Virus record (IMG/VR): IMGVR_UViG_3300045303_000132
Coordinates: 1 to 55,699 of that record
Length of the DNA: 55,699 nucleotides
Direction: 5' to 3' (one strand)
Origin: a virus
The position numbers and the translations under genes were made by a program. Numbering within the stretch: the first letter of the stretch is position 1; every line of letters begins with the position of its first letter. The notes under the pieces are model-generated. The model had not been told where the DNA came from. It ran no database searches and saw only the letters and a list, made by a program, of their open reading frames with translations. Shown here one piece after another: positions 271-55,578 of the stretch.

Positions 271-690
271 ATGGCAACCGCCACGGCTCGCAAGACCAGC
301 ACCAAGAGCAAGGCCGCCCGCTTCAACCCCGACACCCTGCCCCAGACGGGCACGGGTCAGCTCCGCCAGGGCGGCGACTACAAGCCGTCCATCCGGGCGC
401 TGGGCACCTTCGCCAAGGGCGACCCCAAGAACGCCGCCCACGTCAAGGCCCTGATCCACCTGGGCTGGGTGAAGCCCGGTGGCGTCAACGCCGCGAGCAA
501 GAGCCCGGCGTTCTCCACCGCCAACGAGGCGGGCCTCCCCGCCGAGTGCTGGACCGTGGACGCCCCGGCTGGCCCGCAGATCAGCGCCAACCTGCTCGCG
601 CTGGCGGAGGCGGGCGCGCCCGCGGAGGCCCTGGACAGCCTGTGGAGCGCCTACCTCGGCTCCGGCAAGGCCGAGGCGGACGTGCTCTAG
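271..690 (+). CDS. Conserved end protein, paralogue of 53105-53521
   Basis: A 139-aa protein of unknown function with a basic, Ala/Lys/Thr-rich N-terminus (about residues 1-20). It aligns with the protein at 53105-53521: both share LPxTGT near residue 25, a HLGW motif near residue 65, and a C-terminal helix with AGAP followed by a Trp (ALDSLW here, ALATVW in the other). This copy has normal Asp, Glu and Ile use. It starts at the ATG after the first promoter module and ends just before a strong hairpin, so it is probably a monocistronic, possibly abundant early product. The LPQTG string is not a sortase signal because it is near the N-terminus and no membrane helix follows. Confidence 0.85.
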   Translation: MATATARKTSTKSKAARFNPDTLPQTGTGQLRQGGDYKPSIRALGTFAKGDPKNAAHVKALIHLGWVKPGGVNAASKSPAFSTANEAGLPAECWTVDAPAGPQISANLLALAEAGAPAEALDSLWSAYLGSGKAEADVL

Positions 691-15372: not shown

Positions 15373-15856
15373 TGACCGGCTTGAGTTCGTAGCCGAACTG
15401 ACCTTGCTGGGGTTCAGCCCCGAGAAGATCGCGGAGCGGCTGGGGGTCAGCGTAGGCGTCGTGAAGAGCGACCTGGAGCAGATCCGCATCCGGTGGCAGA
15501 AGAACCGCCAGAAATCCTACTCGCAGTTCATCGAGGAGGAGTTGGCGACCCAGCAGATGCTGATGCGCTCTCTCGAGGACGGCATCAAGTTGGGATCGTG
15601 GAAGCACGTCGAGACGGCTCTCAAGATCACCGAGCGCCGCGCTCGAGTGTTTGGCCTGGACCACACCGATCGTATGGAGCAGGCGCGGGTGGAGATCGAG
15701 GCACGGCAACTCGACATGATCAGTCGTGCGCTGGAGCGCGTGATGGAGGTGCTGGGGCTGACTGACGAGCAGCGTGAACTCGCCACGGAGACACTGATTC
15801 TGGAACTGGAGGAGGGCGACATCGTAGTCGACCCAGATGGAGAAGAGGACGAATGA
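15359..15856 (+). CDS. Helix-turn-helix DNA-binding protein
   Basis: A 165-aa protein. Residues about 5-45 carry a helix-turn-helix (LTLLGFSPEKIAERLGVSVG, then VVKSDLEQIRIRWQ), like the sigma-70 region 4 or small-terminase type; the rest is long amphipathic helices that probably oligomerise. GTG at 15359 has AGAGGA upstream and is preferred over 15338. It could be a transcription regulator or the small terminase subunit, although the large subunit is 36 kb away. Overlaps its neighbours on both sides. Confidence 0.7.
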   Translation: MSARDDRLEFVAELTLLGFSPEKIAERLGVSVGVVKSDLEQIRIRWQKNRQKSYSQFIEEELATQQMLMRSLEDGIKLGSWKHVETALKITERRARVFGLDHTDRMEQARVEIEARQLDMISRALERVMEVLGLTDEQRELATETLILELEEGDIVVDPDGEEDE

Positions 15857-16785
15857 GTGTACTGACGGTCATCTCAACCACGTCGCAGCGGAAGAACCAT
15901 GCTGCGATCGCGTGTGCGAGATACAACGCGGATCACGGGTCGGTGGTGGTGCTCGATCAAGGGGGCGGCACCGTGCTCGACGGGTACGTGGAGGGGGACA
16001 CGTGGGTCCGCACGAAGCACGACAACCTCCTCGCGCAGTTGAGGACAGGGTGTGACCTCGCGCTCCTCGACGGCCACGACTACGTCGTCCTTCTCGATGA
16101 CGATGTCACCTACCTGACCCCGATCGAGCCGTCGGGCAACTCGTACCGCATCCGTTCGAAGAAGAACGTACCGGACGACCCGGACTGGCGGGGTGCCCTC
16201 ACGTACGAGAGCCTCTCATTCATCGACGACAACGTGGACACGTGGTTCCCCGGCGATCAGTCCATGCTGGTGGTGTCGTCCCGCCTGTTCTTCCCGAAGC
16301 CGAACGAGGTGGTCCCGCACTTCACTCCACTCACCATCGAGCGGTTCCCGTCCGTATTCAACGATCACGTCGTATGGAAGACTTCCAGGCTGGACGAGGT
16401 GCTCGGCGTGTTCGAGGACCTCGGGGTGCTGAACTACTCCGCGGGCGTGGACAAGGCGGGCGCGCTGGTGAACAACATCCTCGGCTACACGGTGGGTCGG
16501 CTCCAGTGGATCCGTGCCACGAAGTGGGACATCACCGGCAACGACGACTCCACGATCTACGACTTCGAGGACATCCCTGTCGACCAGAGGAACGTGTACC
16601 GGAACCAGGAGGATGCGAAGGCGCTGTTCAAGTTGCGCCCGTTCGTCGAGGAGAGCGGCCTGTCGTTCAAGGCGTCGATCACCAAGAACGGCAGCCTGAA
16701 CTCCTTCACCCGTACGACAGGCGTGTCTCTGGACAAGATGGTGGCGGACTATGTCCGCGGATCTGAGATGAAGGCGCTCATCTAG
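15853..16785 (+). CDS. Glycosyltransferase-like protein (GT-A fold)
   Basis: A 310-aa protein with an N-terminal Rossmann-like segment (LTVISTTSQRKNHAAIACAR) and a DYVVLLDDDVTYL motif near residue 80 that matches the D-x-D of GT-A transferases. The rest has further acidic and aromatic residues typical of sugar-binding pockets. It is separated from the other three transferases (25209-27549) by several genes, so it may glycosylate a different acceptor, or the same one at another step. Confidence 0.65.
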   Translation: MSVLTVISTTSQRKNHAAIACARYNADHGSVVVLDQGGGTVLDGYVEGDTWVRTKHDNLLAQLRTGCDLALLDGHDYVVLLDDDVTYLTPIEPSGNSYRIRSKKNVPDDPDWRGALTYESLSFIDDNVDTWFPGDQSMLVVSSRLFFPKPNEVVPHFTPLTIERFPSVFNDHVVWKTSRLDEVLGVFEDLGVLNYSAGVDKAGALVNNILGYTVGRLQWIRATKWDITGNDDSTIYDFEDIPVDQRNVYRNQEDAKALFKLRPFVEESGLSFKASITKNGSLNSFTRTTGVSLDKMVADYVRGSEMKALI

Positions 16786-21991: not shown

Positions 21992-22858
21992 ATGAGCGAT
22001 GAGACAATGGACCTCTACCGAGGGATGGTGGTGGAGCGGCACAACATCTGGTGCGCCCGCCAGATGGGCGAGCCCCAGCCGTGGACTCACGACGTGGTGC
22101 TGGCGAACCGGAAGTTCACCAATATGTTCCGCGTCCTCGACCCCGGCTCGCAGTTCGTGTTCGACCTTGACAACGAGGACCCGGTGACCGTGATCGCCCG
22201 GCTGGTCTTCTACCGGATCACGAACCTGCCGTCTACGTGGTACGCGATGCGGGCCGCGCACGGACGCTACCCCACCGCCAATGACTTCACCCACTCGTCG
22301 GCATTCCTGTTCCAGATTCTCGACGCGCACCGGCTGAGTGGGAATCGCATCTTCAGCGGGGCGTACATCATCGTCCCTGAGCCCGGAACCGCGAACGACA
22401 AAGTGAGCGGGGCGCTACGCCTGACGGCCCTGTTCGTCAGGGAGAGGGCCGAGGCGTTCCTGGACGCCACCACTCAGGACGAGCGGTTCGACGTGCTGCG
22501 GTCCACCCCTGGTCTCGGGCCGTTCCTCTCGATGCAGATCCTCACCGATTGGGGCTACCTCCAGACCGCGGAGCCGGACCTGTCGTTCATCGTGGCTGGC
22601 CCCGGTGCTCGCCGTGGTGCCGCGCTGCTCTACCCGGCCAAGAAGCCGGAGGACGTGATCTACGACCTCGCCTTCGACTGGATGGATCATCCTTCCGTTA
22701 GGCTGGTCGGTCGCTCCCTCACGCTGATGGACGTGCAGAACACTCTCTGCGAGTTCAGCAAGTACGCGCGAGAACTCGTCGCCCCCCGCAAGAAGACGAC
22801 GTACCAGCCCTCGCACCCCGGCGCTCAGCCGGTCCCCGTTATCCCCCGATGGTGGTAG
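21992..22858 (+). CDS. Hypermodified-thymine biosynthesis protein (5-hmdU kinase / thymine pyrophosphorylase helical family)
   Basis: A 288-aa protein whose N-terminal part, W-C-A-R-Q-x-G-x-P-Q-P-W-T then L-A-N-R-K-F-T-N-M-F-R-V-L-D, matches the helical domain shared by predicted 5-hydroxymethyl-dU DNA kinases and alpha-glutamyl/putrescinyl thymine pyrophosphorylases. Later features are a GLGPFLSMQILTDWGYL segment (a helix-hairpin-helix-like G-x-G-x-F-x-x-x-Q-x-x-x-D motif, about 172) and a GPGARRG stretch (about 205). The family acts on 5-hydroxymethyl pyrimidines in DNA. No P-loop kinase domain is attached, so the pyrophosphorylase branch is the closer analogue. Directly upstream of the hydroxymethylase. 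Confidence 0.75.
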   Translation: MSDETMDLYRGMVVERHNIWCARQMGEPQPWTHDVVLANRKFTNMFRVLDPGSQFVFDLDNEDPVTVIARLVFYRITNLPSTWYAMRAAHGRYPTANDFTHSSAFLFQILDAHRLSGNRIFSGAYIIVPEPGTANDKVSGALRLTALFVRERAEAFLDATTQDERFDVLRSTPGLGPFLSMQILTDWGYLQTAEPDLSFIVAGPGARRGAALLYPAKKPEDVIYDLAFDWMDHPSVRLVGRSLTLMDVQNTLCEFSKYARELVAPRKKTTYQPSHPGAQPVPVIPRWW

Positions 22859-22935: not shown

Positions 22936-24459
22936 ATGACCCAGACATACACGTTCGCCACGGCAAGCGAGGCGCTCCCATTCATCTGCTCTCGTATCCT
23001 GGACGTCGGCGACGAGGTCGGCAGCAGGAACGGGCGGGTGAAGGAATTCCTGAACACCCAGATCGTGCTGACCGACCCGCAGCGGCGGGAGATCCTCACT
23101 CTCAACCGCAAGGCCAACGTCTTCGCGCAGATTGCTGAGACGATGTGGGTGCTGGCCGGGCGCAACGACATCGAGTGGCTGAGCGCCTACCTCCCACGCG
23201 CCAAGGACTACAGCGACGACGGGGAGACGTGGAGGGGCGGCTACGGCCCGCGGATCCGCGACTTGACCTTGTTCAACGGACACCGGCTTGATCAACTCGC
23301 CTACGTCGTGGACGTACTTCAGGCCGACCCACTGTCCCGGCGTGCGGTGATCGCGATCTACGACCCTGCCGTGGATACGGAGCCGGGTAAGGACATTCCC
23401 TGCAACGACTTTCTCCAGTTCCAGAGTCGCCTCGGTGCCCTGCACATGACGGTGACCGTGCGGTCGAACGACCTGATGTGGGGCTGGTCGGGCATCAACG
23501 CATTCGAGTGGAGCACCATCCAGGAGATTGTGGCCCACCTGCTCGGCATCGCCGTGGGCACGCTGACGTTCAACATCGGCAGCCTGCATCTCTATGACCG
23601 GCATTGGGACAAGGCCAGTCGTCTCAAGTACGAGGCCGACCCGTGGGCGATCACTCCGTTCCAGATACCGGACGCGGTGGATCGGACGTTGGAGTGGGTG
23701 GACATCTACATCGACCGTTGGTTCGAGTGGGAGGCGTTGTGCCGGAAGGGCGAGGCCACGCTGGAGGGTCTGGGTGAGATCGAGGAGCCGCTGTTCCAGT
23801 CCTGGGCGGCGGCGATTGCGTACTTCTGGCAGCGCGAGGACCACTGGCTCCAGATGCTCCGGCGCACGGCGTTGGCAGCAGCCATAGCCAGGACCCCTGC
23901 CAGCGTGCTCTCAGAGGCCCGTACAGCGTCGTCCAGCGGTGCGCCGGGGGTAACCCACAACCTAGCCGCGCACGAGCGCACACGGGCGTTCTACGCCTTC
24001 GTTACCGACCTGCACGCCAAGAAGCACGCGTCGTACGGGAACTCGTGGATGAAGCGGGGCGAGAAGCTCTCCATTCTGGCGAACATGGCTCGTAAGGTGG
24101 ACCGGCTGGGGGTCGGCGATGAGTACGACAGTTCGGCGGACACCCTGATCGACCTCCTGGTCTACGCGAGCAAGTATCACTGCTGGCTCCTCGGCTGTGA
24201 GGCGAGCCCGGAGAACGTGAATCAGGGGCTGGCCGTGGCTTTGGCAGAAGAAGAGGAGACCGTGGGGCAGGCGGCGGACATCGCCATCGTGGACATCGTC
24301 GACGACTTCAACCTCTACTGCAACAACATCGACACGTACATCACCGACGAGAAGGTGGACTTCATAGGCGAGCTGATCCTCCGAGTGACGCCCATCGCCC
24401 GCGATGTCTGGTACGAAGAGACCCACGGCACCGAGTACCGCGGAGCGGACGTAGACTGA
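22936..24459 (+). CDS. Thymidylate-synthase-like pyrimidine hydroxymethylase fused to Nmad1/DUF1599
   Basis: A 507-aa, two-domain protein. Residues 1-270 are a thymidylate synthase/hydroxymethylase fold: S-R-R-A-V-I-A-I-Y-D-P near residue 134 (phosphate Arg), I-P-C-N-D-F-L-Q-F near 153 with the catalytic Cys, R-S-N-D-L-M-W-G near 175 and S-G-I-N-A-F near 184. The Asn in GIN is the residue that selects dUMP in thymidylate synthase (Asp in dCMP hydroxymethylases), so a dUMP substrate is suggested; the W in DLMWG is hydroxymethylase-like. Residues 330-500 resemble Nmad1/DUF1599 (KKHASYGNSWMKRGEKLS, then N-M-A-R-K-V-D-R-L). The linker holds a 25-nt repeat (see 23907). Forms a pathway with the 21992 gene and the transferases. 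Confidence 0.8.
   Translation: MTQTYTFATASEALPFICSRILDVGDEVGSRNGRVKEFLNTQIVLTDPQRREILTLNRKANVFAQIAETMWVLAGRNDIEWLSAYLPRAKDYSDDGETWRGGYGPRIRDLTLFNGHRLDQLAYVVDVLQADPLSRRAVIAIYDPAVDTEPGKDIPCNDFLQFQSRLGALHMTVTVRSNDLMWGWSGINAFEWSTIQEIVAHLLGIAVGTLTFNIGSLHLYDRHWDKASRLKYEADPWAITPFQIPDAVDRTLEWVDIYIDRWFEWEALCRKGEATLEGLGEIEEPLFQSWAAAIAYFWQREDHWLQMLRRTALAAAIARTPASVLSEARTASSSGAPGVTHNLAAHERTRAFYAFVTDLHAKKHASYGNSWMKRGEKLSILANMARKVDRLGVGDEYDSSADTLIDLLVYASKYHCWLLGCEASPENVNQGLAVALAEEEETVGQAADIAIVDIVDDFNLYCNNIDTYITDEKVDFIGELILRVTPIARDVWYEETHGTEYRGADVD
23907..23931 (+). repeat. 25-nt dispersed repeat inside the hydroxymethylase linker
   Basis: These 25 bases are the exact reverse complement of 27620-27644, in the terminator region after the glycosyltransferases. 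In the protein they encode the linker between the two domains. Shorter related pieces (CCTCTGA, ACAGCGTC, ACCCACAAC) occur near 42420-42480. Confidence 0.7.
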
Positions 24460-25015: not shown

Positions 25016-25209
25016 TGGACCATCCGACGTTTGTCACCATCGAATACTGGCACCAGATGACTGCTTCCTGGGAGACCGGGCACGCCGGGATCAACCTGAT
25101 GAACCCTGCCACCTACGTCCAGAAGTTGGCGAAGCGCGGGGTCATCGCACGAGCCGTCGAGAAGGACACCGGGGTGACCGTGTACGGCGAAGGTGCAGAC
25201 CTCCTCTGA
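25015..25209 (+). CDS. Hypothetical protein, 64 aa
   Basis: ATG overlaps upstream stop. Small, aromatic-rich N-terminal half and a Lys/Arg helix in the middle. Not recognised. Ends one base into the first glycosyltransferase of the cluster. Confidence 0.6.
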   Translation: MDHPTFVTIEYWHQMTASWETGHAGINLMNPATYVQKLAKRGVIARAVEKDTGVTVYGEGADLL

Positions 25210-25907
25210 TGGACGTGGTCTACGTGTGCCGAAACGGGGACAACCCCGAACTCCGGTACTCCCTCCGCACGCTGGCGAACGTGGATCACGACCGCGTGTG
25301 GATCTTCGGCGGCGCGCCCACCTGGATCGACTTCACCGCCGTCACTCACCAGAAGCGAGCGCAGTGTGGGACCCCGTACTCCTCCACCCGGAGCCATATC
25401 GCAGCCGCGTGCAACACCCCAGAGGTGAGCGACCCCTTCGTACTCTGGAACGACGACTTCTTCGCGATGCACCCGGTCGGCACCGTGCCGCTCTACCACC
25501 GTGGCCCGCTGGAGCCCCTACTCGAGAAGTACGTCAAGATCAGGACGCCGTGGGGGAAGGGGTTACTCCAGACAGCCGCGATGATGGGAGGGCGCGGACT
25601 GCTGGCGGGCGCGATGTGCTACGACGTTCACCTCCCACTGGTTGTCTGCAAGGCAGAGATGCGGGAGGCGCTGCGGTTGGCGAAGAACGCTTCGACCGAC
25701 GCCATTCACGTGAGGACGTTGTACGGGGCCTTGTCAGGGCTGGACGGAGTGGAGCACCATGACCCGAAGTTGATGCGTCGAAGCGACCCGTTCCCGCGTG
25801 GTGCGTGGCTGTCTTCCAGCGACGACACATTCCGTTCAGCCGTGGAGCCGGTGCTGAGATACCTGTTCCCGGACGCATCACTCTACGAGAAAGCGATGTT
25901 CAGGTGA
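25209..25907 (+). CDS. Glycosyltransferase, Stealth-like
   Basis: A 232-aa protein beginning VVYVCRNGDNPELRYSLRTL, followed by VWIFGGAPTWI and LWNDDFFAM (about 79-87), an Asp-Asp motif like the CR2 region of Stealth-type phosphosugar transferases. It is overlapped by the next transferase (GTGA). Three such genes in a row beside base-modifying enzymes suggest that a sugar is added to modified DNA, though a cell-surface or virion acceptor is not excluded. Confidence 0.7.
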   Translation: MDVVYVCRNGDNPELRYSLRTLANVDHDRVWIFGGAPTWIDFTAVTHQKRAQCGTPYSSTRSHIAAACNTPEVSDPFVLWNDDFFAMHPVGTVPLYHRGPLEPLLEKYVKIRTPWGKGLLQTAAMMGGRGLLAGAMCYDVHLPLVVCKAEMREALRLAKNASTDAIHVRTLYGALSGLDGVEHHDPKLMRRSDPFPRGAWLSSSDDTFRSAVEPVLRYLFPDASLYEKAMFR

Positions 25908-26581
25908 CCCTCGGGATCCTACTCCCCACGCGGGGACGACCAGATAACCTCCACCGCTTCCTCTCGGCCACCGAGGACACTGCCGACGACTGGCACTTGT
26001 ACCTTCGGCTCGATTACGACGACCCGCAGGCACCCGCGTACGACGAAGTCATCGGGCGGGCGTACCGGCGCATCACGGTCCGCCACGGTCCCCGAGTCGG
26101 TTTCGGGGCGTCCCTGAACGAACTCGCCTTCCGGGCCGAGCGGGACGGGGTGTCGCACCTCGGCATGTTCGGCGACGACGTAGTGCCGGAGACCCCGCAT
26201 TGGGACACCCGGCTGGTCGAGGCGCTGGGCGACGACCTCGGCATCGCCTACGGTGACGACGGCCTACGGCACAAGCATGGACGCGACCTGCCGACGCACT
26301 ACGTCACCCACGCGGAGGTCTACCGCCGCCTCGGCTACCTGTCGCCACCCACGATCCGTCACCTGTATCTGGACAACGTGGCGAGGGACGTGGGTCTGTA
26401 TCTGAAGAACTTCGTGTTCGTGCCGGTCAGCATCAGGCACCTCCACCCGTGGGCCGAGGGCGAGCAGATCCACGACTCCACCTACGCCGAGGGCGGGCGC
26501 AACGCCGACCTCCGCCTCGCCGACCGGAGGGCGTACATCCAATGGACGCAGGACCGTGAGTGGAAGCGCCGCCTTCGGTGA
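25904..26581 (+). CDS. Glycosyltransferase, GT2-like
   Basis: GTG start. The 225-aa protein opens with LGILLPTRGRPDNLHRFL, the typical beta1-alpha1 of GT2 enzymes, with an acidic LRLDYDDP near 37 and a MFGDDVVPETPHWD near 92 that carries the D-x-D/D-D nucleotide-sugar motif. The C-terminal half has H-L-Y-L-D and H-P-W acceptor-like segments. Sits between the other two transferases with coupled start and stop. Confidence 0.75.
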   Translation: MTLGILLPTRGRPDNLHRFLSATEDTADDWHLYLRLDYDDPQAPAYDEVIGRAYRRITVRHGPRVGFGASLNELAFRAERDGVSHLGMFGDDVVPETPHWDTRLVEALGDDLGIAYGDDGLRHKHGRDLPTHYVTHAEVYRRLGYLSPPTIRHLYLDNVARDVGLYLKNFVFVPVSIRHLHPWAEGEQIHDSTYAEGGRNADLRLADRRAYIQWTQDREWKRRLR

Positions 26582-27549
26582 CACTGACCGCGTTCCTCCA
26601 CGGCTACCCGCCGCTCTGGTCCATGGGCGGAGAGATGTCTACGCACCGCACCCTCCGCGCCGTGCCGGGTTCCATTGTTTACACGAAGACGCTCGAGGAC
26701 TATCAGTTCGACGGGGTCTCGGTGAAGCCAGCGACGGGTACGTCCTTCCAGTGCATCAAGGACGACGCAAGATCCGCCGGGGCGACTGTCCTGTTCGGGC
26801 ACTCGACATTGTCCATGGACACTATCCGGGCTGCGAGGCAGTTGAAACTCCCGTCCATCCTCGCCGTCCACGCGCCACGCCGATTCGGGGCAGACCTGCA
26901 TCGGGCGAAGTCGTCAGCCACCGTGCGTCTCTACAACACGGAGGCCGCTCGGAAGGACTGGCACGACCCGAGGGGGTGGCTGCTGCACCCGCCTGTCGGT
27001 GGTCCGTCCGACTTGCCGGAGGGGCCGGGCAACGCGATAACGCTGACCTCGTCTCTCGTGAACAAGGGGGCGGCTCGCGTGCTCAAACTGGCGACACGGC
27101 GCTGGGACCAGAGGTTCATCATCGTGGAATCGCCTGCGCATCCCACCCACGGCGACCCTGACTTCTGGCACGATGCGCAGAAACTCGACAACGTGGAGAT
27201 CTGGCCGCGCCTGCACCCCGACGAGATGGGCAAACTCTGGGCCGAGACTCGCGTGCTGCTGGTCCCATCGCGGTACGAGACCTACGGCATGGCCGCGATG
27301 GAGGCGGCGTGGCACCATATCCCCTCGGTACACGTGGACACCCCCCACGTCCGCGAGGGAATCGGCACGGCGGCGTGCCTCATCAAGACGACGCATCTCG
27401 AGGAACTGGACCACGCGCTCACCGAGGTAGAACTAGAGCACGACGTCTGGGCAGACCGGGCCTTCCACCGCGCTGAAAGCCTCGCGCAGCGAGAATCAGA
27501 TGAGTTGGCCCTGTTTGCGGCGGGTGTGGCCGGGCTCACACCCCTGTAG
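26578..27549 (+). CDS. Glycosyltransferase, GT4/GT1-like (GT-B)
   Basis: A 323-aa GT-B fold protein. The C-terminal domain shows W-P-R-L-H-P-D-E-M-G-K-L-W then VLLVPSRYETYGMAAMEAAW (about 222-241), the E-x7-E-like donor-binding region of GT4 enzymes, followed by an I-P-S-V-H-V-D-T-P segment. GTG at 26578 is used because it overlaps the preceding stop. It is the last rightward gene; a strong hairpin lies right behind it. Probably transfers a hexose to the acceptor made by the upstream genes. Confidence 0.8.
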   Translation: MTLTAFLHGYPPLWSMGGEMSTHRTLRAVPGSIVYTKTLEDYQFDGVSVKPATGTSFQCIKDDARSAGATVLFGHSTLSMDTIRAARQLKLPSILAVHAPRRFGADLHRAKSSATVRLYNTEAARKDWHDPRGWLLHPPVGGPSDLPEGPGNAITLTSSLVNKGAARVLKLATRRWDQRFIIVESPAHPTHGDPDFWHDAQKLDNVEIWPRLHPDEMGKLWAETRVLLVPSRYETYGMAAMEAAWHHIPSVHVDTPHVREGIGTAACLIKTTHLEELDHALTEVELEHDVWADRAFHRAESLAQRESDELALFAAGVAGLTPL

Positions 27550-51484: not shown

Positions 51485-52843
51485 TCAGAACCGGCCCATT
51501 CTCACAGAACTGAGGGCCGAGGGAAGCCCGACAGGCCCCGGTGCCGGAACCATACTGCCACGGACGGTCGCCGTGTGCCGCGACCGCAGATACCACATCG
51601 CCCAGACGAGCGCGTCCACCCGGTCGGGAGACGCTCCGACCCCCGGCACCCACTCGCACATCTGGTCCCAGAGCGGCGTGCTCTGCGTCACCATGTGGAC
51701 GATCTGCTCCTCGACCTCCCAGAGCAGGGCGATCGGCTCGGCTCGCGTCTTCTTCGACTTCGTCGCGTTCACCGTGTGAATCGGGAGCGCGTGACCCGCG
51801 GAGTTGATCACCTCCTTCACCATCTGCCCGCCCTGATTGATCTCCGCGACCACGATCCCGTCGTACGAGTCGGCAGCGGACTTCACCCGCGCCGCCCAGA
51901 CGTGCGGCGACGCCTCTTCCACGCTCCGGTCGTCCAGGACATACATGTGACCTCCGGCGTCTTGCCCCACGACGACGATGCCGCACGTCCCGTTTCCGGT
52001 GGGCGGGTCAACACCCACCACGACCCGATCGCAGATCGCGGCCACGGCCGACCCCGGTCCGTTGACCCGACTCCTCTCGAGGTCGTTCGCCTTCCAGAGC
52101 GCCCCCTCGACGTCCTCGATGACTTCACCCAGAACCTCCTGTCGGTACAGCCGAGTTCCGTAGTAGAGCGTGTTCAGGGTGTGCAGCCAGTCCAGCGGGA
52201 TGTGCTTGTTGTCCATCGACGTGCCACGTCGGACAACAACGTTCGGGTCAGCCTCCCACTTCTTGATCAGATGGTGGGGCCGGGGCGTACTCGAAATCAG
52301 CCATCGCCGGGAACCACGTCGTCTACTCAGCGATGCCTGCTCGAACGCCTTCTCGGCACAGGGATTCGCGAAGAACTCCTCGAACACGTCGAAGTCTACG
52401 TTCGTCAGAGCACGAAGCCTGTCCACGTCCTTCTCGGTGGGTGTCCCAACGATCCACACCCGAGACCCGTTCGGGTAGCGCACACAGGCTCCTCCGGGGG
52501 CACTCGGGAGCCACTTCGCCTGATTCTTCGACAGAGTCAGCAGTCCGTTCGGCCCGTCGACCGCAGCCGCGATTCCGTCACCGAGTGTCGGAGCAATGAC
52601 CCGCGCTCGGACGTTGCTGGTCTCGGACAAGGTGAGGTGGAGCTCCCACATCGCTGCGAAGGACTTGCCCGCTCCTCGTCCGGCCATCATGGCGAAGCCG
52701 AGGGCGTTGGGGTTCTCTCCCGGATCGCGGGCAGAGCCAGGGGAGACTCTCCACGGGGGGATTTGGTGGTGCTGGAGAATCACTCTGCCCGCTAGGCGCT
52801 CTCTCAGTCCGTCCGCGAGGGCGGTGGACGAAAGGGAGGCCAT
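51485..52843 (-). CDS. Terminase large subunit
   Basis: A 452-aa protein; ATG at 52843. ATPase motif I A-G-R-G-A-G-K-S (about residue 52), Walker B F-D-V-F-E-E-F-F (about 132), motif III S-S-T-P-R-P (about 165), and in the nuclease domain V-V-V-G-V-D-P-P-T-G (about 252), a later E-I-N-Q-G-G (about 311) and D-R-V-D-A-L-V-W (about 413). It cuts and packages DNA. The usual neighbouring small subunit is missing; the HTH protein at 15359 is a candidate. Confidence 0.92.
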   Translation of the reverse strand: MASLSSTALADGLRERLAGRVILQHHQIPPWRVSPGSARDPGENPNALGFAMMAGRGAGKSFAAMWELHLTLSETSNVRARVIAPTLGDGIAAAVDGPNGLLTLSKNQAKWLPSAPGGACVRYPNGSRVWIVGTPTEKDVDRLRALTNVDFDVFEEFFANPCAEKAFEQASLSRRRGSRRWLISSTPRPHHLIKKWEADPNVVVRRGTSMDNKHIPLDWLHTLNTLYYGTRLYRQEVLGEVIEDVEGALWKANDLERSRVNGPGSAVAAICDRVVVGVDPPTGNGTCGIVVVGQDAGGHMYVLDDRSVEEASPHVWAARVKSAADSYDGIVVAEINQGGQMVKEVINSAGHALPIHTVNATKSKKTRAEPIALLWEVEEQIVHMVTQSTPLWDQMCEWVPGVGASPDRVDALVWAMWYLRSRHTATVRGSMVPAPGPVGLPSALSSVRMGRF

Positions 52844-52968: not shown

Positions 52969-53027
52969 TGAGGTCTACCACGGTGATTCTCCGCGCGCAA
53001 ATAAGATGCCGCGCGGCGCCATTTTCC

Positions 53028-53083
53028 TTGGGTTTGGCCGGGCGCCGGGTAGGCTAGCCATAGGCAAGCCAACGGGGCCTGCC
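53028..53083 (+). promoter_or_regulatory. Promoter plus 5' hairpin, copy 9 (GA/TC-free)
   Basis: -35 TTGGGT (53028-53033), 16-bp spacer, -10 TAGGCT (53050-53055), then GGCAAGCC (53063-53070), loop AACGG and GGCCTGCC (53076-53083). Relative to other copies the hairpin keeps its shape with changed bases on both arms (GGCAGCCC to GGCAAGCC; GGGTCGCC to GGCCTGCC), and the whole module has no GA or TC dinucleotide. Confidence 0.8.
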
Positions 53084-53104
53084 ACTAGTAGTTAGGGGCC
53101 ACCA

Positions 53105-53521
53105 ATGGCCAGCACACCCAAGCCGCGCGCACCGCGCGCACCCAAGGCACCCGCGTACGCGGTTGCCAGCCTGCCCACCACGGGCACCCAATACCGGCTT
53201 GCCAGCGGGGGCACGGGCACCGCGCAGCAAACCGCCTACCAGCAGGCGGTGCGCACCCTGCACGCATGGGGTGGTGGCCCCACCACCGCCAACGGCCCGC
53301 TTGTGTTTGCGCTTGTGCACCTTGGGTGGTGCGCAGGTGGCGGTGCCCGTGCCTTGTGTAAGGCCAGCAGCAGCGCAGCCTGCCAACACGGCACGCCGCA
53401 CCTGCAGCATGGCAAGCCTGCCGCGCCACAGGTGTGCGCCACGCTGGCAGCGCTGGCAGCCGCCGGGGCACCCGCTGCCGCGCTGGCAACCGTGTGGGCC
53501 ACCTACACGGGCAAGGCATAG
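53105..53521 (+). CDS. GA/TC-free paralogue of the first gene, 138 aa
   Basis: A 138-aa protein of unknown function aligned with the product of 271-690. Because GA and TC are excluded it has no Asp, Glu or Ile, all Ser are AGC codons, Phe is TTT and the stop is TAG. Acidic positions of the paralogue are replaced, for example ALAEAGAPAEALDSLW becomes ALAAAGAPAAALATVW. The protein is strongly basic. It starts at ATG 53105 after an AGGGG site instead of AGGAAGG. Ala, Thr, Gly, Pro and His are enriched, and four Cys are present. Confidence 0.8.
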   Translation: MASTPKPRAPRAPKAPAYAVASLPTTGTQYRLASGGTGTAQQTAYQQAVRTLHAWGGGPTTANGPLVFALVHLGWCAGGGARALCKASSSAACQHGTPHLQHGKPAAPQVCATLAALAAAGAPAAALATVWATYTGKA

Positions 53522-53541
53522 CCCGGCAGGTGCAACAACCG

Positions 53542-53670
53542 GCCCGGCCCGCCCCCACGGCGGGCCGGGCTACCCGCCTAGCACGCCAGCTAGGCGCCCG
53601 GCCCGGCCCGCCCCCCCACGGCGGGCCGGGCCACCCCCGGCCCGGCCCGCCCCCACGGCGGGCCGGGCCG
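53542..53670 (+). terminator. Three tandem GC hairpins
   Basis: Hairpin 1: 53542-53553 with 53559-53570 (12 bp, loop CCCAC). Hairpin 2: 53600-53612 with 53620-53632 (13 bp, 7-nt loop). Hairpin 3: 53638-53651 with 53657-53670 (14 bp, loop CCCAC). All have the same GGCCCGGCCCGCC stem. They follow the stop of 53105-53521 and probably end its transcript; none has a U tract. Confidence 0.75.
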
Positions 53671-53821
53671 GATCTGCGCGCCCGACGGACGCCCCGCGAC
53701 TCTCCGAGACCGCGCCGGAGGCGCGACTCTCCGAGACGCGGCCGGACGGCCCCGACTCTCCGAGACGCGGCCCGACGGCCCCGACTCTCGGGGAGCCCGC
53801 CCACTCTGCCGAGTCCGGCCC
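53671..53821. promoter_or_regulatory. Cluster of TCTCSGAGA sites before promoter copy 10
   Basis: The 9-bp palindrome TCTCCGAGA occurs at 53701-53709, 53728-53736 and 53757-53765, with an imperfect copy near 53786. The three perfect sites are 27-29 bp apart and lie upstream of the -35 of copy 10. No gene is seen. Confidence 0.6.
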
Positions 53822-53878
53822 TTGGGTGCGACCAGCCCACCGGGTAGGCTAGCCGTAGGCAGCCCACCGGGGGTCGCC
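53822..53878 (+). promoter_or_regulatory. Promoter plus 5' hairpin, copy 10
   Basis: -35 TTGGGT (53822-53827), 17-bp spacer, TAGGCT (53845-53850), then GGCAGCCC (53858-53865), loop ACCGG and GGGTCGCC (53871-53878). ATG at 53896 after CGAAAGG. Confidence 0.8.
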
Positions 53879-53895
53879 ATCACGAAAGGCTCACC

Positions 53896-54045
53896 ATGAC
53901 AGACTGTGACTTCCCGCAAGACGTGGACGCCGCTGGGAACCTGACGCACGCCGAGTGCGCCTGCCCGACGCCGGGGGCCGGGCCGTGCCCCTGCGAGGTG
54001 GAGAACGAGGTGTCCTGGCGCGCCAGCGCGCACCCGCTGTCGTAA
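53896..54045 (+). CDS. Cys-rich peptide, 49 aa
   Basis: Five cysteines in 49 residues (C4, C21, C23, C31, C33), including two C-x-C pairs, with an acidic character. Probably metal-binding. Has its own promoter module; not recognised. Confidence 0.65.
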   Translation: MTDCDFPQDVDAAGNLTHAECACPTPGAGPCPCEVENEVSWRASAHPLS

Positions 54046-54108
54046 GTCCGCCCGGCCCCGGCCCTCGTACGCGAGGTCCGGGGCCGCTTTCGTACGTTCG
54101 TACGCGAT

Positions 54109-54117
54109 TCTCCGAGA
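54109..54117. promoter_or_regulatory. TCTCSGAGA site before promoter copy 11
   Basis: TCTCCGAGA, here within GATTCTCCGAGAGG, lies about 30 bp upstream of the -35 of copy 11. Confidence 0.5.
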
Positions 54118-54145
54118 GGGTCGTACTCTTTGAGGAGCAGAGCCC

Positions 54146-54202
54146 TTGGGTGCGACTAGCCCGCCGGGTAGGCTAGCCGTAGGCAGCCCACCAGGGGTCG
54201 CC
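54146..54202 (+). promoter_or_regulatory. Promoter plus 5' hairpin, copy 11
   Basis: -35 TTGGGT (54146-54151), 17-bp spacer, TAGGCT (54169-54174), then GGCAGCCC (54182-54189), loop ACCAG and GGGTCGCC (54195-54202). ATG at 54222 after GGAAGG. Confidence 0.8.
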
Positions 54203-54221
54203 ACTCACCGGAAGGTCCATC

Positions 54222-54455
54222 ATGGCCCTCAAGTCCAAGCGGGACAACGTCTCCGCCAGCACCACCATTGTCACCACTGTCGTTGTCCACGTCGACCTCG
54301 CCGCGCTGCTGGCCGCGTACGACGTGACGGACAACGTGGTCCTGATGCTCGCCACCCCCAGCGGCCGCGACAAGCGTGTCGTTCTCGGCGGGAACTTCCT
54401 GGTGCCGCCGCACCAGGACCTGAACCTGGACGTGGAGTACCGGGGCACCTACTGA
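54222..54455 (+). CDS. Hypothetical protein, 77 aa
   Basis: A beta-rich protein with basic N-terminus (ALKSKRDNV), a Thr/Val-rich strand block (TTIVTTVVVHVDL) and an end rich in Pro and Asp. Not recognised. Monocistronic between copies 11 and 12 of the promoter module. Confidence 0.7.
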   Translation: MALKSKRDNVSASTTIVTTVVVHVDLAALLAAYDVTDNVVLMLATPSGRDKRVVLGGNFLVPPHQDLNLDVEYRGTY

Positions 54456-54514
54456 TCCACACGGGGGCGGCGGCTGGGGGGCCGTCGCCCCTTTCGTGGC
54501 CCCCGGCCCGCGAT

Positions 54515-54523
54515 TCTCGGAGA
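54515..54523. promoter_or_regulatory. TCTCSGAGA site before promoter copy 12
   Basis: TCTCGGAGA lies about 20 bp upstream of the -35 of copy 12; again each right-end promoter has such a site just upstream. Confidence 0.5.
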
Positions 54524-54544
54524 CCACAAAACCGAGTCCGGCCC

Positions 54545-54601
54545 TTGGGTGCGACTAGCCCACCGGGTAGGCTAGCCCTAGGCAGCCCACCAGGGGTCGC
54601 C
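54545..54601 (+). promoter_or_regulatory. Promoter plus 5' hairpin, copy 12
   Basis: -35 TTGGGT (54545-54550), 17-bp spacer, TAGGCT (54568-54573), then GGCAGCCC (54581-54588), loop ACCAG and GGGTCGCC (54594-54601). ATG at 54622. Confidence 0.8.
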
Positions 54602-54621
54602 ATCACAGTAAGAGGTCCATC

Positions 54622-54843
54622 ATGATCCACATCCACGCGGGTGGCACCACCCGCACCCTTTGCGACCAGCCGCTCGTGCTGGGCACCAACGTGTCGTGGG
54701 AGCAGGCCACCGACGCGACCTGCACCGTCTGCGCCTCCCACTTCGGGCGGCGCGTGCCGCAGTACGGACCCGAGTGGGTGGCCCACGCCACCGGCGGCGG
54801 GCGGATCCTCGACGGGAACCTCCTGGTTGGCGGTGCCGCGTGA
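54622..54843 (+). CDS. Zinc-binding-like protein, 73 aa
   Basis: H-I-H near the start, a single Cys at 14 and CTVC near 34, followed by a His in a S-H-F-G-R-R segment: a compact C/H metal site. The second half is Gly-rich. Its stop overlaps the next GTG (GTGA), coupling the two. Confidence 0.7.
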   Translation: MIHIHAGGTTRTLCDQPLVLGTNVSWEQATDATCTVCASHFGRRVPQYGPEWVAHATGGGRILDGNLLVGGAA

Positions 54844-54935
54844 TCCGCCGGGTGCGGGCGTGGTGGTGGTGCCGCCGGGAGTGTGGCGTCACTGACATCG
54901 CGGTCTACACCTGCGACCGGTGCCGGGTGCGCTGA
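54840..54935 (+). CDS. Zinc-ribbon mini-protein, 31 aa
   Basis: GTG start in a 4-base overlap with the upstream stop. Very basic (Arg and Trp-rich start), with CRREC near residue 11 and CDRC near 25. Last gene before the non-coding end. Confidence 0.6.
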   Translation: MIRRVRAWWWCRRECGVTDIAVYTCDRCRVR

Positions 54936-55276
54936 CCGACACGAGGGGCGGGGCCTGCGGGCTCCGCCCCTTCCGCGGGGCCGGGGCCGCGATTCTCCGA
55001 GAACTCACGGCGGGGCCGCGATTCTCGGAGAACTCACGGCGGGGCCGCGATTCTCCGAGAACTCGCCCGAGGCCCCCGGCAGGAGCGACAGCCCGCCGGT
55101 CTACGGCGGCGACTCTCCGAGAGGAGCCCGCGCCGCGACGAGCGCGCGCCGCGAAGAGCGGCGGGCCGCGACTCTCGGAGACCTCAGGGCGGGCCGGGTC
55201 TTCGCGCCGACGAGCGGCCCCTCCTCACCGCAGGGAGGAGCAACGCTCGTCGGGAGCGGCCCAGCCGCGGAGGTCG
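54936..55276. other. Right non-coding end, repeats and sites
   Basis: No credible gene. It contains a short GGCGGGGCC/GGCTCCGCCCC hairpin right after the last stop (about 54948-54970), the 29-bp tandem repeats (54982-55068), and further TCTCSGAGA sites at 55114-55122 and 55173-55181. It is rich in GCGC runs. Confidence 0.6.
54982..55068. repeat. 29-bp tandem repeat, three copies, each with a TCTCSGAGA site
   Basis: Units at 54982-55010, 55011-55039 and 55040-55068. Units 1 and 2 differ only at the centre of the palindrome (C or G), and unit 3 diverges in its last bases. Each unit contains GATTCTCSGAGAA. Confidence 0.85.
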
Positions 55277-55357
55277 CGGGACACTCGGAGAATCGCCCCC
55301 GCTGCCCCGCCGATCCTCGGCTGGCGGGGCAGCGGTGGCGATTCTCCGAGTGTCCCG
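55277..55357. repeat. 81-bp near-perfect palindrome
   Basis: 55277-55311 pairs with 55323-55357 over 35 bp with a single mismatch (C at 55298 against T at 55336) and an 11-nt loop. The outer part contains GGGACACTCGGAGAATCGCC, so it holds two inverted copies of the TCTCSGAGA-type site. Confidence 0.85.
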
Positions 55358-55397
55358 GCGAGACCGCGCTGACGACGCCCGTCGTACGTCGTACGTC

Positions 55398-55578
55398 GGG
55401 TGGTACGGGTGGTACACTCGCCCCGCGTGTCGTACGCCTAACATCGTAAGCGAAGTCGTAAGCCCGACTCTTGGCGATGTCTGGGTGGTACACGGAATGA
55501 TAGGCGTTTGGGGGGTACGGACGGTACGGGTGGTACAAACCCGGAGGTGTGTGGGGGGCCATATGTCGCGGGTGGTAC
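55398..55578. repeat. GGGTGGTAC iterons at the right end
   Basis: Copies at 55398-55406, 55407-55415, 55483-55491, 55528-55536 and 55570-55578, all in the same orientation. Together with 34-42 (inverted) and 73-81 they make seven around the joined ends. GTAC-rich spacers (GTACGTC, TACGG) lie between. Confidence 0.7.
55506..55558. repeat. Right arm of junction-spanning inverted repeat
   Basis: Reverse complement of 12-64 with two mismatches; the first 39 bases match exactly. See the left arm. Confidence 0.9.

Follow-up and report, generated by a model that had tools for sequence, protein, structure and literature searches.

In the 55,699-nt viral genome IMGVR_UViG_3300045303_000132 from IMG/VR, which was analyzed over its whole length (coordinates 1–55,699) and is called the window here, one complete transcription unit on the plus strand contains neither the dinucleotide GA nor its complement TC. 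The void spans 53026–53671, is flanked by GA/TC steps at 53025 and 53671, and encloses a gene that we call R together with its promoter-like site and three hairpins. Based on the dinucleotide positions, window statistics and a motif scan, we conclude that the void is real, selected and very unusual. Our favored reading, to which we assign a probability of roughly 0.58, is that the R unit is a modification-free transcription unit: thymine in the TC context would be hypermodified in this phage, and the unit would have been recoded to stay unmodified and transcribable.

Extent and architecture of the GA/TC void

The sequence-only reading that drew attention to this block described 645 nt without GA or TC where roughly 60 would be expected, and both figures hold. 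The composition of the block (A 96, C 264, G 220, T 65) predicts 32.7 GA and 26.6 TC, or 59 together. Elsewhere in the genome, windows of 645 nt contain 100.6 ± 9.3 GA/TC steps (range 61–124), never fewer than 61, and the second-largest gap between such steps is only 45 nt. When the R protein is recoded with the codon usage of the genome, the coding sequence (CDS) acquires about 28 GA/TC steps; the actual count is 0. An unbiased motif scan of about 50 related loci, covering all dinucleotides and degenerate trinucleotides, returned GA/TC in the R unit as the strongest void, with 99 expected, as compared with a median best void per locus of 18. One third (33%) of the single substitutions within the unit would generate GA or TC.

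The limits of the void coincide with those of the unit, as had been proposed from the letters alone. It begins 2 nt upstream of the −35 box TTGGGT (53028–53033) and ends on the final base of the third hairpin. The promoter-like site TTGGGT-16-TAGGCT (53028–53055; TAGGCT at 53050–53055) is a copy, devoid of GA/TC, of an element that occurs at ten places in the genome. The R gene (53105–53521, plus strand, from ATG at 53105 to a TAG stop at 53519–53521) encodes a 138-residue basic protein with an isoelectric point of 10.1, in which serine is encoded only as AGC and Asp, Glu and Ile are absent, as the sequence-only reading had noted. The protein is predicted to be all-helical, with a confident six-helix AlphaFold model (predicted local distance difference test score 88). 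Downstream lie a terminator-like hairpin with a 13-bp stem and no T run (53541–53571; z −4.3), a second hairpin with a 13-bp stem (53600–53632; z −2.6), and a third with a 15-bp stem (53637–53671; z −5.2). Family searches of the R protein in Pfam, PHROGs and NCBIfam gave no match, nor did searches of the unit and R protein against 50,697 phage records or of an R family profile against 84,980 prokaryote genomes. The void is strand-symmetric and includes the untranscribed promoter and the hairpins past the first terminator, which points to an agent that acts on double-stranded DNA, in line with the pressure that the sequence-only reading had postulated.

The ten copies of the gene-start element (window positions 214, 1922, 2935, 5461, 11881, 16831, 53050, 53845, 54169 and 54568) are centered on TAGGCTAGCCGTAGGCA, and their paired arms show apparent covariation (GCGAC/GTCGC, GGAC/GTCC, GGAT/ATCC); the R-unit copy carries the GA/TC-free arms GGCC/GGCC. 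In each of the other nine copies, TAGGCT is preceded at 13–14 nt by a GA/TC step, and the following such step comes 22–29 nt past the start of TAGGCT. The −10/+30 region of these copies is also poor in GA/TC: among the 14 GA/TC gaps examined that come next in size, 9 correspond to promoter elements of this or a similar kind.

The same element precedes the first gene of the left arm, L (271–690, plus strand), which is a paralog of R and is rich in GA/TC. Its CDS contains 40 GA/TC steps and its product has 11 acidic residues, as compared with 0–1 in the void R proteins. A GA/TC-rich L paralog was found in every phage whose left arm was covered. Because L has an ordinary composition, the protein family itself has no need of the bias.

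The void in related phages

The R unit adjoins the large terminase gene (51488–52843, minus strand), its syntenic neighbor in all relatives, and an R ortholog next to the terminase gene was located in several IMG/VR contigs. In two of these, L003 and L004, the R protein is 74% identical to that of the window. The L004 void extends from just upstream of the −35 box through all the terminator hairpins (605 nt), and the L003 void from just upstream of the −35 box to the contig end. The R CDS of the window and of L004 differ at 104 of 408 aligned bases, yet neither contains a single GA or TC; L003 and L004 preserve the void at about 75% identity. The occurrence of the same void in independent metagenomes excludes a misassembly.

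A second, more diverged R-protein subfamily, represented by L066/L071 and L073, has a near-void. Its coding sequences lack CTC, GTC, GAG and GAC, and every TC left in them is part of ATC or TTC. The unbiased motif scan found STC/GAS to be absent across 476–499 nt of these loci, and the promoter spacer of L073 retains one GTC. Since the voids of both subfamilies persist despite divergence, the void is conserved during sequence change, and the forbidden motif differs slightly between lineages. The STC/GAS near-void fits an enzyme as the agent, with a context preference that would evolve.

Two side observations concern this region. L003 and L004, which are 99.8% identical over 5.7 kb, have 10 differences in the R CDS that are apparently clustered near the gene end, with the void kept. 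The intergenic stretch of the window at 53690–55400 contains many CGACTCTCCGAGA-type palindromic repeats, and the palindromes at the corresponding location in contigs G004 and G024 are different ones.

Proposed thymine modification and the reading of the void

The sequence-only reading proposed no agent, and the thymine-hypermodification genes of the same genome supply one. The product of 21992–22858 (plus strand) matches the 5-hydroxymethyldeoxyuridine (5-hmdU) DNA kinase family HMUDK_hel (Pfam PF18723, E value 1.7e-46) with 159 bits against a cut-off of 25, over profile positions 3–275 of 281. By family searches, the adjacent gene (22936–24459, plus strand) encodes a thymidylate-synthase-like protein with an extra C-terminal part, a candidate deoxyuridine monophosphate hydroxymethylase. 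Four further plus-strand genes encode glycosyltransferase-like proteins: 15853–16785, recognized from its own sequence with no family match; 25209–25907, with phrog_7999 and a weak Stealth CR2 match below its cut-off in Pfam; 25841–26581, with phrog_14945 and also phrog_2675, the latter named DNA methyltransferase; and 26560–27549, of the family-4 type by Pfam and PHROGs. The gene set of thymine-hypermodification phages, namely a kinase, a thymidylate-synthase-like protein and further tailoring enzymes, is thus present in this genome. Of the genome's thymines, 43.8% sit in TC, which resembles the modified fractions of ViI and phi W-14 given by Flodman et al.

Published 5-hmdU kinases are sequence-specific. 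Restriction-resistant sites carry TG/TC (PMC6449724), kinase-treated SP8 DNA gave the TG/TC context again (PMC7653180), and other PF18723 members phosphorylate 5-hmdU in DNA in the TS context (PMC6449724, PMC7653180). A gene that starts with ATG, GTG or TTG cannot be free of TG, but it can be free of TC. Bacterial RNA polymerases tolerate 5-hydroxymethyluracil (5-hmU) but are blocked by bulkier major-groove groups (PMC11550810), and in vitro, once a kinase has phosphorylated 5-hmU templates, the output of E. coli RNA polymerase falls to 10% of its level on the 5-hmU template (PMC6457204).

Together these elements suggest the following scheme. The phage would make 5-hmU and incorporate it into its DNA, and we infer that its kinase phosphorylates this base at TC, after which the glycosyltransferases would probably extend the phosphorylated base. 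DNA with such bulky thymine groups, including the phage's own final modification, would be transcribed poorly by bacterial RNA polymerase. A single unit, purged of TC on both strands between its −35 box and its final terminator, would then stay readable because the blocking groups would not be placed in it, and could be transcribed while other genes are silent, either from the DNA of the virion or, at a late stage, from DNA that is fully modified. The void matches the stretch that RNA polymerase reads plus the untranscribed promoter, which supports the modification-free unit. The R product is small, basic and helical, and R would be a recoded form of its paralog L, the first gene of the left arm. 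On the basis of the early-type promoter and this kinship, we favor a start-up copy that would be the first to be expressed from the injected modified genome.

Several observations weigh against this reading. The R gene of G023, G027–G029 and G024 has an ordinary GA/TC content. The sequence-only reading had named relatives with free GA/TC in the orthologous unit as grounds for abandoning its proposal; such relatives exist in G023, G029 and G024, and L003 and L004 are not among them, so the rule is lineage-specific and not universal. Contig G006, which bears the kinase gene, overlaps the void-free G028 at 99.8% identity over 1,968 nt; a phage with a kinase but no void thus seems to exist, in which case the kinase alone would be insufficient for the void. 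More distant kinase phages, scanned as whole or part contigs, had no GA/TC void. Early genes that contain GA/TC still need to be expressed, and the start-up model must account for this. The R protein model matched nothing among solved structures and viral folds, and the phage is known from sequence only.

Some of these differences have a possible context. Phages with and without the void are intermixed on the terminase tree. G024, which has no void, and G030, which has a near-void, are 98% identical in the large terminase and 99% in the L gene, yet only 43% in the R protein. They differ in a hypervariable segment, about 2 kb long, between the terminase and the left paralog (G024:6850–9050 versus G030:7380–9500) that contains the R unit, small genes and the intergenic repeat region, with flanks about 95% identical. 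The void state thus switches, at least in part by module exchange. The modification cluster of G006, whose R gene is non-void, includes an extra TET-associated glycosyltransferase (TAGT; L050:6053–7075, E value 4e-10), and the end product of modification, or its context, may be different from that in the window phage. A comparison of the kinases from one void and one non-void phage, which are 69% identical, showed no readable specificity region.

Two candidate signals in other phages were set aside. In a related kinase phage (L032:7685–7964), a large SWW gap proved to be a collagen-like tandem repeat and is compositional. Avoidance of TG in place of TC by the non-void relatives is not relied on, as it amounts to a mild CTG/CAG depletion with no frequent motif absent, although CTG/CAG in the R gene is the lowest of its own contig in all three non-void cases (G023, G029 and G024; z −3.6, −2.6 and −1.9). 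In G023 and G029 the R genes strongly favor CTC, GTC and TCN codons, a bias that runs counter to that of the void genes.

Among alternatives, the main rival, which we consider unlikely, is a damage-proof counter-defense gene: a host glycosylase or nuclease would attack modified thymines, and the intact R unit would express an inhibitor. The rest of the genome would then be broken or abasic at every TC. Such a gene would account for the promoter-to-terminator extent on both strands and for the void-free phages, and the exchange of the R unit between the otherwise closely similar G024 and G030 resembles an arms race. No such defense was identified, however, and a non-void paralog accompanies the gene in every phage with a covered left arm. 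The void proteins also lack the acidic character of known anti-restriction and DNA-mimic proteins. The same modification logic would also allow, with a somewhat lower likelihood, a late-phase gene such as a timer or lysis-stage regulator, whose unmodified unit is still transcribed after full modification of progeny DNA. Its position next to the late (structural) operon agrees with this, whereas the promoter element that it shares with early-type rightward genes and its paralogy to the first left-arm gene do not.

The remaining explanations fare worse. Selection at the RNA level, in which the transcript shuns GA/UC owing to a constraint on translation or to a ribonuclease of the phage or host, agrees with the mRNA, which lacks both motifs, and with the reshaped protein composition. 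An agent of this kind need not clear a motif plus its complement, the untranscribed promoter or the hairpins past the first terminator, and a strand-symmetric void in untranscribed DNA recurs in two relatives, so we regard this as very improbable. A packaging or replication site kept unmodified would explain why the large-terminase gene adjoins the unit in all relatives; it is scarcely credible, given that the limits are a promoter and terminators, that the open reading frame is conserved and that three relatives are void-free at the same place. A mutational or compositional accident (APOBEC-like TC-to-TT hypermutation, low complexity or a recent foreign insertion) could draw on the GC-rich block and the repeats in the 3′ hairpins, and is strongly contradicted. 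APOBEC-like mutation is rejected because TT (12 versus 6.6 expected) and AA (16 versus 14.3) show no gain of the size needed. Against an accident in general, the unit has GA/TC-rich genes as orthologs in syntenic positions, and the void survives the differences from L004 although so many substitutions would break it. The modification-free reading fits most features of the unit, by way of chemistry that we infer.

Relation to known systems and significance

Restriction-site avoidance thins 4–6-bp sites throughout phage genomes. It resembles the present case as the removal of a short motif by selection at the DNA level, but here one dinucleotide is fully gone from a single unit and normal elsewhere, and the price is the loss of every Asp, Glu and Ile from the protein. 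Phages with 7-deazaguanine made by DpdA, such as CAjan, modify DNA in GA and GGC contexts. They share a dinucleotide context that includes GA, but their chemistry falls on guanine rather than thymine, and there was no DpdA among the window genes scanned.

The hypermodified-thymine phages Pseudomonas M6, Salmonella ViI and Delftia phi W-14 are alike in their 5-hmdU kinase family and, from restriction data (PMC6449724), in a TG/TC hypermodification context comparable to the TC proposed here. They differ in that no modification-free unit has been described for them, and a scan of the 50-kb M6-like genome Pa-C found none. Base J (glucosyl-hydroxymethyluracil) is linked to RNA polymerase II termination in kinetoplastids (PMC7055916). 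Like the base proposed here, it is a glycosylated hydroxymethyluracil whose position controls transcription, but as a eukaryotic mark it is placed to stop transcription, whereas in the R unit the motif has been removed, presumably so that transcription can proceed. Our literature search, which covered few subscription papers, found no described precedent for a unit free of its modification motif, as the sequence-only reading had supposed. If such units are defined by absence of the motif from both strands between the −35 box and the terminator, by conservation, and by presence in all phages that share the R gene, then the window and L004 display the first two features, as does L003 to its contig end, and the void-free G023, G029 and G024 depart from the third.

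We tentatively extend the reading to a "bootloader", a motif-purged unit of self-silencing hypermodified phages that would be read first and whose product would open the remaining genome; this is possible but, in our judgment, falls short of an even chance. As part of the same extension, and with similar reserve, the void may expose the modification context from sequence, TC in the window phage and STC in the sister lineage. If true, phage hypermodification would be not an armor alone but a switch as well, one that the phage has to circumvent; motif voids would reveal the context of uncharacterized DNA modifications from genome sequence alone, and the R unit would show, as an extreme example from nature, how DNA chemistry can dictate the composition of a protein, with acidic residues lost protein-wide. 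In keeping with the 30-bp direct terminal repeat that closes the 55,699-base record, the map on which the unit lies is probably complete and circular.
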